From positions 1 through 64,000 of the forward strand of contig JARFPM010000012.1 in NCBI GenBank assembly GCA_030444405.1: 64,000 nt of DNA, read 5' to 3'. Each line of letters opens with the position of its first letter. Position 1 is the stretch's first letter. Below the pieces are notes generated by a model. That model saw only the letters and a program-made list of their open reading frames with translations, ran no database searches and was not told the origin of the DNA. Shown here piece after piece: positions 6,473-56,229 of the stretch. Position numbers and translations under genes: made by a program. Origin of the DNA: Nitrospira sp. Lineage in GTDB: Bacteria > Nitrospirota > Nitrospiria > Nitrospirales > Nitrospiraceae.

Positions 6473-7183
6473 ATGATTCAGTTATTCGAGAAGTTGCGGG
6501 CACTCACATTGACAATACCTATCATGGCAGCGGCTCTTGTGGGAGGGATGATTGTGAGCGACGCCCTGCCTGTCCTGGCCACTGACGTTGAACAGCAGCA
6601 GGTCGTGGGCAAGGCAAAGATGACGCTTGAAAGTTTCCTCGCGGATCCCAGCATGGGACCGGCGCTCCGTGACTTGAAGCAGGAAACCAAAGCCCTCTTC
6701 ATCGTGCCGCAGTTTATGCGCGGTGCCTTCATCTTCGGCGGGGCCGGTGGTCACGGCGTGTTGATCGTGCGTGACCAGGCAACGAAAAAATGGTCCGAAC
6801 CGGCTTTTTACAACATCGGCTCTGCCAGCTTCGGCCTGATGGCCGGTGCCGACGTATCGGAGATCATCTTTGTCGTGCGGACCCAGAAAGGACTGGAAGG
6901 GTTCTATCGTAACGATTTTAAGCTGGGACTTGACGCCAGCATGGCGATAGGCCCGGTCGGTGAAGGAGGGTCCGTGCAAGGGATCACCGCAGACCTCGTC
7001 GGCTATGCGAAGAAGAAAGGGATCTATGCCGGATTCTCAGCTGAAGGCGCCATCGTCACGGTATCCAATGATTCCAACGCGGCATACTATGGCAAATCCG
7101 TGCGGCCAACGGACATCGTCGTCAAGGGCTCAGTCAGTAATCCAAAATCCGCCGACCTCCGCAACGCTGCCGCCAAGTTCTGA
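6473..7183 (+). CDS. SYLF (YSC84-like) lipid-binding domain exported protein
   Basis: Signal peptide; APQF..GAFIFGGAGGHGVLIVRD and SFGLMAGADVSEIIFVV typical of SYLF; upstream aaggagg. Confidence 0.8.
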   Translation: MIQLFEKLRALTLTIPIMAAALVGGMIVSDALPVLATDVEQQQVVGKAKMTLESFLADPSMGPALRDLKQETKALFIVPQFMRGAFIFGGAGGHGVLIVRDQATKKWSEPAFYNIGSASFGLMAGADVSEIIFVVRTQKGLEGFYRNDFKLGLDASMAIGPVGEGGSVQGITADLVGYAKKKGIYAGFSAEGAIVTVSNDSNAAYYGKSVRPTDIVVKGSVSNPKSADLRNAAAKF

Positions 7184-7304: not shown

Positions 7305-7365
7305 CATGCACGCTACGGTCGCAAGCAGCAGCGGTTGGTCGAGCCCGCCATGCAGCATTTCAAAG
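7305..7365 (+). repeat. Leader repeat copy A, also present upstream of the 11.2-kb sulfatase
   Basis: catgcacgctacggtcgcaagcagcagcggttggtcgagcccgccatgcag vs catgcactctagggtcgcaagcagcagcgatgggtcgagcgcgcaatgcag at 11173. Confidence 0.7.
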
Positions 7366-10345: not shown

Positions 10346-10414
10346 GGAAGAGTTCTATCCTAACGATTTTAAGCTGGGACTTGACGCCAGCATGGCGATA
10401 GGCCCGGTCGGTGA
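10346..10414 (+). repeat. Displaced 69-bp fragment of the SYLF gene (copy of 6895..6963)
   Basis: Near-identical by eye with 2 mismatches (ggaagagttctatcctaacgattttaagctgggacttgacgccagcatggcgataggcccggtcggtga). Confidence 0.9.
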
Positions 10415-10651
10415 GGAAGGCGGCGATTCAATCCACGCTTCAACTTGATCTATTACCATACCCGGCGTGGTCGGTGGGGCATAAATCCGCGTGCGGGGCA
10501 CAATGGCGAGAAATTCGTGGATGCACGGCCATGGTATGGCCCATGGCGCCCGTCCCTCGTCCAATCGAAGGATGTGCGCATATGCCGCCTCATGCCAGGG
10601 AGAGTCTTCGCGATGGGAGTGCACGAGAACACGACCATTGACGGCGATCAT
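10355..10651 (-). pseudogene. VapC/PIN-domain toxin, 3' end replaced by a SYLF-gene fragment
   Basis: MIAVNGRVLVHSHREDSPWHEAAYAHIL..APWAIPWPCIHEFLAIV is PIN-like; C-terminus reads antisense through the SYLF fragment; expected VDTN reads VNGR. Confidence 0.7.
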
Positions 10652-11172: not shown

Positions 11173-11232
11173 CATGCACTCTAGGGTCGCAAGCAGCAGC
11201 GATGGGTCGAGCGCGCAATGCAGTATTTCTCA
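11173..11232 (+). repeat. Leader repeat copy B upstream of sulfatase 1
   Basis: See 7305..7365. Confidence 0.7.
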
Positions 11233-31829: not shown

Positions 31830-32396
31830 ATGGAGACCCGACGACAATCAGTATGCTCTCTCATCCTATTCATGCTCGGCCTGAGCGCCTGCACACCGGT
31901 TAACGTGAAGATCGACCATGATCCCACGGCGGATTTCACCACCTTCACAACATTTACTTTCGTGGGACTGGCTGAGGCCGAAAAAGGTAGGATCCACGAC
32001 AATTCGTTGACGCACAAGCGGATTGAATCAGCCGTCGCACGGGAGCTGACCGGGAAAGGGCTTCGGCAAGTCGATCTGAGTCAACAACCCGACCTGCTGG
32101 TCTACTATTGGTTCAGCGCAAAAGAGAAGCAGCAAATTCAGAGCACCGGACCGACCGCCGGTGCCTATGGCTGGCGCGGCAGATATGGGTGGGGTGCGGG
32201 ATACGGGGGCACTGTCACCACCTATGAGTATACGGAAGGAACCTTGATTCTTGATCTGGTCGAACCAACCAAGAAGGAACTGGTCTGGCGCGCGACGATG
32301 GTCGGCACGTTGCACGAGACACCGAAAGACAATATCGAGCTCGGGAATAAGGCCATCGCGAAGGCGTTTGAAAGCTATCCACCGAAACGGAAATAG
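31830..32396 (+). CDS. DUF4136-like lipoprotein
   Basis: Lipobox LGLSAC; VKIDHDPTADFTTFTTFTFV; GTLILDLVEPTKKELVWRATMVGTL. Confidence 0.8.
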   Translation: METRRQSVCSLILFMLGLSACTPVNVKIDHDPTADFTTFTTFTFVGLAEAEKGRIHDNSLTHKRIESAVARELTGKGLRQVDLSQQPDLLVYYWFSAKEKQQIQSTGPTAGAYGWRGRYGWGAGYGGTVTTYEYTEGTLILDLVEPTKKELVWRATMVGTLHETPKDNIELGNKAIAKAFESYPPKRK

Positions 32397-32407
32397 CCGC
32401 TGCCATG
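32162..32407 (+). repeat. 246-bp direct repeat, copy 1 (3' end of the DUF4136 gene)
   Basis: Near-identical to 33222..33467 when aligned by eye, only a handful of mismatches. Confidence 0.95.
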
Positions 32408-32463
32408 GACGGATTTGAGTACTATTTGAGTACTAACGGCGATCAGCCTGCCCTCGGCAATAA

Positions 32464-32913
32464 TCAGGAGCGTCGGTGTGGCTTGCGGCTGAGTGGGTTC
32501 TCCCAACGAAGCCGCTTGAACCGGGCAAAGTCATTGTCGCATGAGACGAGTGTCGCGCCATAACTCATCGCGAGCGCAGCCAGGTGCGCATCGGTCACCA
32601 GATTGGCGGCAGTGCCAGCTTCGCTTAGTAAGGAACGCAGAATCTCCCAGTGTTCGTCTCTTTCCGGCAGGAGCCTTGTGCTGTCAAGAGACAGCCATGC
32701 GTGAACTTTGCCGATGGCCGTATCAGGATCCAGCGGTCGTGGAAAGATGTCGTGGTTGGTGGAGATGCGTAAGAATCCAAGCACCACAACCCACGGTAGC
32801 CCGAGAGGTTCGTCGCCATTGAGGGCCTGCTCCCACCAGGCCTGTATGGGACGGTGGTGAGGAGCGTCTTCGTTGATGGCATAGAGAAGGATGTTAAGAT
32901 CGACCAGTTTCAC
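32464..32913 (-). CDS. VapC/PIN-domain toxin, apparently intact
   Basis: MKLVDLNILLYAINEDAPHHRPIQAWWEQAL..LVTDAHLAALAMSYGATLVSCDNDFARF. Confidence 0.85.
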   Translation of the reverse strand: MKLVDLNILLYAINEDAPHHRPIQAWWEQALNGDEPLGLPWVVVLGFLRISTNHDIFPRPLDPDTAIGKVHAWLSLDSTRLLPERDEHWEILRSLLSEAGTAANLVTDAHLAALAMSYGATLVSCDNDFARFKRLRWENPLSRKPHRRS

Positions 32914-33176
32914 TTGCGACCGAGCACTTTTCTGACGATCTCTTCGTCCTCGAGTGCCGCGGCTAATGCAAGCGCTTTGTCGAGTTTGATCCTGGGCGGG
33001 CCCATTGCGTAGCTCCGCTCCCGATGGCGTCGGTTGCGCGCGGATAATTTGGGCGACGCACGTATGCCTGCGCGCAGAGTCCGATCAAGCAGGCGGGTCA
33101 GCGGAGTATCCTCCTTACGTGCCTGTTCCTTGAGCGTACGGAGGAGCTCGTCGTCGATGCGGATCGTCGTGCGCAT
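32910..33176 (-). CDS. VapB-like ribbon-helix-helix antitoxin
   Basis: MRTTIRIDDELLRTLKEQARKEDTPLTRLLDRTLRAGI; 4-bp overlap with vapC. Confidence 0.85.
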   Translation of the reverse strand: MRTTIRIDDELLRTLKEQARKEDTPLTRLLDRTLRAGIRASPKLSARNRRHRERSYAMGPPRIKLDKALALAAALEDEEIVRKVLGRK

Positions 33177-33221
33177 GGAGGCATCATAGCATCACCTCCG
33201 ATGATGTCAAGGCATCATTTT

Positions 33222-33467
33222 TGCCTATGGCTGGCGCGGCAGATATGGGTGGGGTGCGGGATACGGGGGCATTGTCACCACCTATGAGTATACGGAAGGA
33301 ACCTTGATTCTTGATCTGGTCGAACCAACCAAGAAGGAACTGGTCTGGCGCGCGACGATGGTCGGCACGTTGCACGAGACACCGAAGGACAATATCGAGC
33401 TCGGGAATAAGGCCATCGCGAAGGCGTTTGAAAGCTATCCACCCAAAAGGAATTAGCCGCTGCCATG
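33222..33467 (+). repeat. 246-bp direct repeat, copy 2 (orphan DUF4136 3' end)
   Basis: tgcctatggctggcgcggcagatatgggtggggtgcgggatacgggggc.. through tgccatg, as at 32162. Confidence 0.95.
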
Positions 33468-33574
33468 CATGAACAATGACGGGGGATATTCTGTAATTCC
33501 GAGCCCTCGGTTAACCATCTGAAGTCTCGGCAGAATGTCCCCATCATCGCCACGTGCGCTGATAGGGAGGCGAC

Positions 33575-34012
33575 ATGAGATCAACAGTCATCGCAGTCGG
33601 TATGGCTCGGGTTTGTGCCTGCGTGCTCGCACTGGGCTTGGTCACTGCTTGTTCCAGCAGTCCCGGTCATGGCGATCCGTCCTGGACCTCGGTTCCGATC
33701 ACCCAGGTCAGCCAGGTGGTGGGCGAATGGGAAGGCACCGTCAAAAAGAATCGGGCCATGATGCCGTCCGGATCAGTCCGTTTGATGATCCGGGAGAATG
33801 GATCCTACCTCTTCGTCGGAGAGAGCTTTTCCGACGTAGCACTTGGAGCCGGAATGCTCCAACCTGATGACGGGCGCTTGGTCAGCGCATCGGACCGGCG
33901 CGTCGTCAAGCTGTCGCTCTATGACCACAAGGGCGTTTCGGTTGTCCTGGTGGAGGGGACCAATCGCGAGACGGGGGGTCGGTATCACGGCGAATTTAAG
34001 AAGGTTCCGTGA
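33575..34012 (+). CDS. Small hypothetical lipoprotein
   Basis: Lipobox LVTAC; VSQVVGEWEGTVKKNRAMMPSGSVRLMIRENGSYLFVG. Confidence 0.7.
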   Translation: MRSTVIAVGMARVCACVLALGLVTACSSSPGHGDPSWTSVPITQVSQVVGEWEGTVKKNRAMMPSGSVRLMIRENGSYLFVGESFSDVALGAGMLQPDDGRLVSASDRRVVKLSLYDHKGVSVVLVEGTNRETGGRYHGEFKKVP

Positions 34013-54591: not shown

Positions 54592-56229
54592 TCATTCCAT
54601 ACGTTCATAAACTACGACTTGTCTTCCCGTGCCTATATTCAGCAGCTCAACCTGCTTATACCGCGACTGAGGGTTCTTCGTGAAACATGACAAAACCTGC
54701 TCATCCGGTCGGTCTACAACGAAACGAGGCCCTTTCTGTTCAATCTTTTCACAATACTCTTCTGGTATCGTGGGGATATCAAGCCCCATGGGCTTCCGAA
54801 CCTTCACCCACCAGTTGTTGAAAATGTGCTCCGTATGTGAGGCGTGCGGAAAGCCGTGACGAGATTGATCGAGCGTCCAGTGCAAATACATATGGCTTGG
54901 ATTTAAGAAGTCCACATTAACAAGATGACGCTTCTCGAAATAGTCCTGAAGAGCCGTCCGATCTGCCGCCCATTTATGGGAATAGTCTTTCGAGAGAACA
55001 AGACTCACTACGGCTTGCTTGAAATCACCCCGTACAGCCACCAATAGGGCCGCAGTAAGAAATAACGACAAAGCCACTGCTGCTCTCGGGCCTCTCCCCT
55101 GAAACCATTTGAGCCGAGAAAGCGATGCCATTAAGAATGCGACGGAGATTGTCGCATAGGGAATAAAGAACTGCTGGTAATGCTGCCAAAAATGCTTGCT
55201 CAAGATCATCAATTCTAGCGCGAGCGGCGAAAGAACTACGGCAAAAAGTATATCGATTTTTGAGATTCGGATGTCTGGCGTCTTGCGATCATGATTGCGC
55301 ACCATACCGGCCAAAAACCAGAATGCAAACGCACACCACGCGATAATGACAAAAACGGTAAGATCATTCGCTCTCTTGAATTCACTGAACTCCTTCTGTA
55401 CTACGTCCAGCATAGACATGGGAGTCAATTTCTGAGATAAAAGCTGGAGCCCGTCAAGAAAAGAGTCTATCTGGCCTGTGAGTATGTACGGGCCAGCATT
55501 GAGAATCAGACCGATTATGCCCATTGCAGTTGCCCATAGCAGGAAATCTTGGAATGCTAAAACATACGCCCGGGCCGGTGTGCGGATGGCCGTTGCCTCA
55601 TGAAAAGCCTCAGAAACCACTGCCCCCCGAAGCGCAACCCACAATCCTGCCAGCAAGGCCGGGGCCAAAAAATGCGGTCTCATTGAGACTGCGACGCTCG
55701 CGAAGAATACCGAAACAATGAAGCTGCTCGGCGCACCCCGTAACAAGCCCTTCTTGCCCCCTCCTTTTACTAGCAGCAGAACCGTAGCCAAACTCAGTAG
55801 GGAAGCAGCCATCGGATTGATATGGCTGAGAGAGCCGGGGAGGACTGCAGTAAAGTAGAGATAGAGGGTCGCTGCCGAGAGCGCGATCGCCTGAGATTTT
55901 GAGCTGGGGAGACCCCAATCGCGCGACAAGAGCAGTTTCAATCCCCAATAGAGAGAAAATGCGCCCAAAACAACTGAGAGGATTGAAAGGAACTGCCACA
56001 TCCGTATTGACCCAGCCGCCGCAGGGAGGGCAAAAAGAATCTGAACGACGGGCAGTTTGTCATCGAACTCCCTGGTCCATACCAACTCACCATGCAAGAG
56101 TCGCCCACCGAAGTACATCATGTGATCGATGTCAATGTCGTACTTGGTACCAAGTAAGGTGGCACACACATGCAGGACAAAGATTGAGAACAACACACCT
56201 GCCGGCAGCATCCATAGACGGGGGGTCAT
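54592..56229 (-). CDS. Polytopic membrane protein, possibly GT39/DolP-sugar-type glycosyltransferase
   Basis: Multiple TM helices with N-terminal DIDIDHMMYFGGRLLHGELVWTREFDDKLP acidic motif. Confidence 0.55.
   Translation of the reverse strand: MTPRLWMLPAGVLFSIFVLHVCATLLGTKYDIDIDHMMYFGGRLLHGELVWTREFDDKLPVVQILFALPAAAGSIRMWQFLSILSVVLGAFSLYWGLKLLLSRDWGLPSSKSQAIALSAATLYLYFTAVLPGSLSHINPMAASLLSLATVLLLVKGGGKKGLLRGAPSSFIVSVFFASVAVSMRPHFLAPALLAGLWVALRGAVVSEAFHEATAIRTPARAYVLAFQDFLLWATAMGIIGLILNAGPYILTGQIDSFLDGLQLLSQKLTPMSMLDVVQKEFSEFKRANDLTVFVIIAWCAFAFWFLAGMVRNHDRKTPDIRISKIDILFAVVLSPLALELMILSKHFWQHYQQFFIPYATISVAFLMASLSRLKWFQGRGPRAAVALSLFLTAALLVAVRGDFKQAVVSLVLSKDYSHKWAADRTALQDYFEKRHLVNVDFLNPSHMYLHWTLDQSRHGFPHASHTEHIFNNWWVKVRKPMGLDIPTIPEEYCEKIEQKGPRFVVDRPDEQVLSCFTKNPQSRYKQVELLNIGTGRQVVVYERME

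Follow-up and report, generated by a model that had tools for sequence, protein, structure and literature searches.

A toxin-antitoxin (TA) module of the VapBC type that lies between two near-identical copies of the end of a lipoprotein gene raises the question of how it came to be there, and of whether the duplication was already in place or arrived with the module. The arrangement is found in the window, by which we mean the whole stretch of 64,000 nucleotides of Nitrospira sp. DNA that was analysed. A sequence-only reading of this stretch had allowed two routes: a tandem duplication of the lipoprotein gene that was later invaded by the TA module, or a module that brought a duplicated flank with it.

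The repeat and its cargo

The target is a complete DUF4136 lipoprotein gene on the plus strand (31830-32396; PF13590, E 2e-38), an open reading frame (ORF) with orthologues in the related genomes G012, G018 and G052 and a further possible start at a GTG upstream (31680). Its 3' end, together with 11 bp beyond the stop codon, forms copy 1 of a direct repeat (32162-32407) that recurs on the same strand as copy 2 (33222-33467), where the 3' fragment of the gene is followed by native downstream DNA. The repeat search of the window gives a length of 246 nt, an identity of 98% and a spacing of 1060, and found no other direct repeat of comparable length in the 64 kb, the next longest measuring 75 nt. 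The arms differ at five sites (32212, 32327, 32384, 32388 and 32393 in the numbering of copy 1), which leaves identical runs of 50, 114 and 56 bp between them. Copy 2 is without the 5' part of the gene, but keeps its reading frame and its own stop codon, and is followed on the plus strand by the next gene, an ORF for a putative lipoprotein (33575-34012). The sequence-only reading had thus placed the near-identical repeat correctly, and was also right about the missing 5' part of copy 2, as the ORFs attest, and about the antisense VapC/VapB pair between the copies.

This pair is encoded on the minus strand. The toxin gene vapC (32464-32913) is assigned by profile matches to the PIN domain (PF01850) and to TIGR00028, where it scores 151 bits against a cut-off of 73.6, and its family profile matches VapC43 (PDB 7vwo, E 6e-46). 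Upstream of it, and overlapping it by 4 bp, lies a small ORF of 88 amino acids (32910-33176) that reached no family cut-off in Pfam/TIGRFAM-type profile searches, and which we regard as a putative vapB from its position, its size and the overlap. With VapBC modules that have VapC43-like toxins (TIGR00028) it shares a PIN toxin above the family cut-off and a small, overlapping partner gene upstream; the gene pair itself is ordinary, and it is the flanks that are unusual.

Between the two copies lie 814 bp, in which ORFs and profile searches revealed vapC and vapB only, and no recombinase, transposase or integrase. An integron cassette, an insertion sequence (IS) or an attachment-site element was accordingly rejected, given the lack of a recombinase in the insert, the variable repeat length and the unrelated targets described below. 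On the vapB side, the upstream region of the minus-strand gene (33177-33221) is conserved in orthologous cassettes up to 33216 or 33217 and then gives way to copy 2. On the vapC side, a spacer of 43 bp (32408-32450), for which no homologue was seen in the cassette comparison with G012, separates copy 1 from the conserved part of the cassette, homology to the G012 cassette starting at 32451.

The site and the cassette in related genomes

In G012 and G052 the DUF4136 gene is single, has no VapBC at the site and runs straight into the window's next gene; these are the empty sites with one repeat copy that the sequence-only reading had suggested might be found in relatives. G018, too, has one copy of the gene, followed in the intergenic gap by an IS110-type insert that carries the transposase domains PF01548 and PF02371, so that this one intergenic spot exists in three different states. 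The IS110-type transposase insert of G018 (L002 1-1500, G018:C2) is split into two ORFs. Judged against these three genomes, the duplication occurs only where VapBC occupies the site, from which it follows that the duplication goes with the insertion. Two gene copies without a TA module, which would have spoken against the sequence-only reading, were looked for among relatives in the comparison of DUF4136 orthologues, and no such relative was found.

A further stretch of about 88 bp (33468-33555), downstream of copy 2 and ahead of the next gene, is likewise absent from G012 and G052, and lies outside the VapBC insertion itself. It contains a hairpin (33482-33542) with arms GGGGATATTCTG and CAGAATGTCCCC and a DNA fold z of -2.7, and a third near-match to a hairpin arm is found at 56222; the element looks like a small repetitive or MITE-like one, older than the VapBC insertion.

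The cassette, for its part, has orthologues (window 32451-33217, 80-81% DNA identity) in G012, G018, G052 and G075, in each case elsewhere in the genome. In G012 and G018 it stands in front of an intact gene for a DUF4870-like membrane protein, a name that is a reading of the protein only, and no repeat was detected there. In G052 the cassette has the complete gene on its vapC side and, immediately past the vapB promoter, 108 bp that repeat the 3' end of that gene. The arrangement in G075 is the same, with arms of 127 bp, except that the longer copy is cut short at its 5' end beside another VapC-like module, a full copy lying a few kb away. The topology in G052 and G075 is that of the window, around a different, unrelated gene, and in every BLAST comparison cassette homology on the vapB side ends at 33217 (33216 in G018). 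The DUF4870-like gene of the window's own genome (G000:C65, L077) yields no origin for the cassette, as it aligns with relatives over the gene alone and has no VapBC beside it.

We consider it likely that an insertion with a long target duplication explains the locus. A self-contained VapBC cassette of about 0.8 kb, with no recombinase of its own, would have entered the DUF4136 gene at its 3' end and, in the same event, duplicated 246 bp of the target, so that a 3' fragment lies just past the vapB promoter, with a complete gene on the side of vapC. We infer that the two ends of the incoming DNA joined the target at points about 250 bp apart, through repair of a break or a switch of template, and posit that an intact host gene allowed the event to persist. 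Between the arms the divergence is 2%, against about 10% to relatives over the same stretch, and on that scale the insertion is recent.

The most serious competitor is homologous integration, either Campbell-type or one-sided, in which a donor carried VapBC beside the 3' end of its own copy of the gene and one of the arms is donor DNA. The mismatches between the arms bear on this. Compared with three relatives, copy 2 carries the derived base at one of the five sites (32212) and copy 1 at the other four, the 3'-terminal variants in copy 2 being the ancestral ones, an arrangement consistent with one crossover in the interval from 32212 to 32327. However, with five sites such an arrangement is not rare by chance, and the mismatches are not decisive between a duplicated target and a donor arm. 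The divergence of 2% between the arms, against some 10% to relatives, would also require a donor from the same or a sister species, and an earlier first insertion would still be needed at each of many unrelated targets. We regard homologous integration as unlikely.

Toxin-antitoxin loci across the genus

We surveyed the genus for direct repeats that span a toxin gene, with a BLASTN score of at least 40 bits and both arms no more than 800 bp from the gene. By this criterion, whose threshold was chosen once the first cases were known, and in a sample in which loci are partly dependent and many genomes are drafts, flanking direct repeats were found at 18 of 66 VapC loci, 11 of 26 ParE loci and 6 of 20 HicA loci. 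Among the controls they were found at no thioredoxin gene (0/25), no glycosyltransferase gene (0/29) and 3 of 428 random tiles, all three inside one large gene with internal coding repeats. Fisher tests against the tiles gave p values of 2e-14 for VapC and 7e-13 for ParE, and of about 3e-6 and 4e-7, respectively, when each target gene was counted once, these last counts being estimated by hand. The repeats at the other TA loci of the genus measure 42 to 283 bp; some positives, with short arms (36-45 bp), may be chance matches, and at many TA loci no repeat is present. The excess is less marked in other phyla, where 5 of 74 VapC loci and 11 of 783 control tiles have repeats (p 0.009).

The arms around VapBC modules are the ends of genes: DUF4136, DUF4870-like, a kup-like transporter, helicase-like, MFS-like (5' part) and YCII-like. 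Those around ParE modules are the ends of an aat-like gene, an S1-like gene and others; the assignment covers the inspected VapBC and ParE arms, and all names except DUF4136 are read from translations. VapBC modules flanked by a duplicated 3' end have the longer copy on the vapC side and the fragment past vapB. At the S1-like target of a ParE cassette, most genomes match over a single gene copy alone.

Three further arrangements were seen alongside the survey. On the far side of a VapC module, and separated by additional sequence, lies a second copy (91%) of the 5' end of a dnaE-like gene (L109, 536-648 and 2508-2619), a case that falls outside the 800-bp limit of the survey. In a Chloroflexi metagenome-assembled genome, an 81-bp repeat of 96% identity in a ferredoxin-like gene (L172, 7213-7293 and 8915-8995) brackets a hydrolase-like ORF, that is, cargo other than a TA module within a similar repeat. 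Within the window itself, two repeat pairs lie about 3.5-3.9 kb apart (6895-6969 and 10346-10420, 95%; 7305-7361 and 11173-11229, 88%), and their second copies flank a region of small ORFs with a weak partial VapC match (10427-10642); these pairs may go back to a similar event that was older and larger in extent.

The single-copy sites in G012 and G052, along with the recurrence of a TA module between duplicated ends at many unrelated genes, favour a single event in which the insertion itself duplicated the target, and the interpretation in the sequence-only reading is supported in part. A two-step origin, in which the gene end was partially duplicated in tandem and VapBC came to lie between the copies afterwards, is allowed by the geometry alone; yet the TA-free relatives with two copies were not found, and each of the many targets would have had to be duplicated beforehand and then invaded exactly at the junction. 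We hold it to be very improbable. An assembly artefact, which the sequence-only reading had named as a danger and which a metagenome-type draft of 170 contigs might suggest, is the least credible of all, since there are five differences between the copies, both outer flanks align collinearly with independent genomes, and the pattern recurs in other assemblies, for instance on contigs of 1.76 Mb (L237) and, as a single contig, 4.59 Mb (L123).

Insertion with target duplication need not be peculiar to VapBC. That type II TA modules of three toxin families share the same mark looks like a common route of TA spread in the genus, in which the ends of the incoming DNA would join the target some 40-280 bp apart. 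We lean towards a broader view, although with less assurance than for the locus itself: type II TA modules of unrelated toxin families would be small mobile units in this genus, sharing a transposase-free insertion that duplicates about 40-280 bp of target, mostly gene ends, as has been proposed for restriction-modification systems, with about a third of the sampled TA loci keeping the mark.

What the arms may do once they are in place is suggested by a helicase-like site common to four genomes. Here the inner ~55 columns of the arms are 93% (G061) and 98% (G092) identical within a genome, against 76-78% between G061 and G092, whereas the outer 70 columns show no such excess in G061 and a slight one in G092. 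The pattern, which the other two genomes at this site do not show, looks like gene conversion between the arms. Such patches indicate that arms of this kind recombine, and the excision geometry proposed in the sequence-only reading is sound: the reading frames show that the gene is restored wherever in the repeat the crossover falls. Loop-out would thus restore the DUF4136 gene and remove the TA module, and it is conceivable that VapC penalises this loss, as the 'addiction lock' of that reading would have it.

Significance and known counterparts

How chromosomal TA modules that lack a transposase enter and leave genomes has long been asked. A mark that recurs in three toxin families, comes with empty sites and does not occur at control genes would allow the route to be followed in sequences and tested at the bench. 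An insertion that falls at the end of a gene and spares it would also account for the spread of TA modules at a low cost to their hosts.

Some integrative elements integrate into the 3' end of a gene, where they regenerate the gene end on one side and leave a displaced fragment on the other. The arrangement described here shares the regenerated end and the displaced fragment, but differs in having no integrase, many unrelated targets, a variable repeat length and some duplications of 5' ends.

Another counterpart is the ParDE-type module of Microcystis aeruginosa PCC 7806, which, in the part of the report drawn on here, is fenced by 152-bp direct repeats (PMC7935541). The likeness lies in two direct repeats, comparable in length, on either side of a type II TA pair; the difference is that the Microcystis repeats are reported there to be identical and to contain a 16-bp inverted repeat, with no mention there of an empty site or of an origin in a gene end. 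The module may be another case of the same pattern. Beyond the papers cited here, we found none in the open-access literature on TA modules as a class inserted with target duplications, a search that cannot prove novelty.

A precedent comes from restriction-modification systems, for which insertion with long target duplication has been described (Nobusato et al. 2000, as related in passages of PMC1643837, PMC3874152 and PMC3031569). As far as those passages go, the two have in common an addiction-type gene pair without a transposase, direct target repeats whose variable length is on the order of 100 bp (246 bp here), and relatives with an empty, single-copy allele. They differ in that the cargo here is VapBC, with ParE- and HicA-type modules in relatives, and that the genus is another one. 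A pattern so far described for restriction-modification systems would thereby be extended to TA modules.
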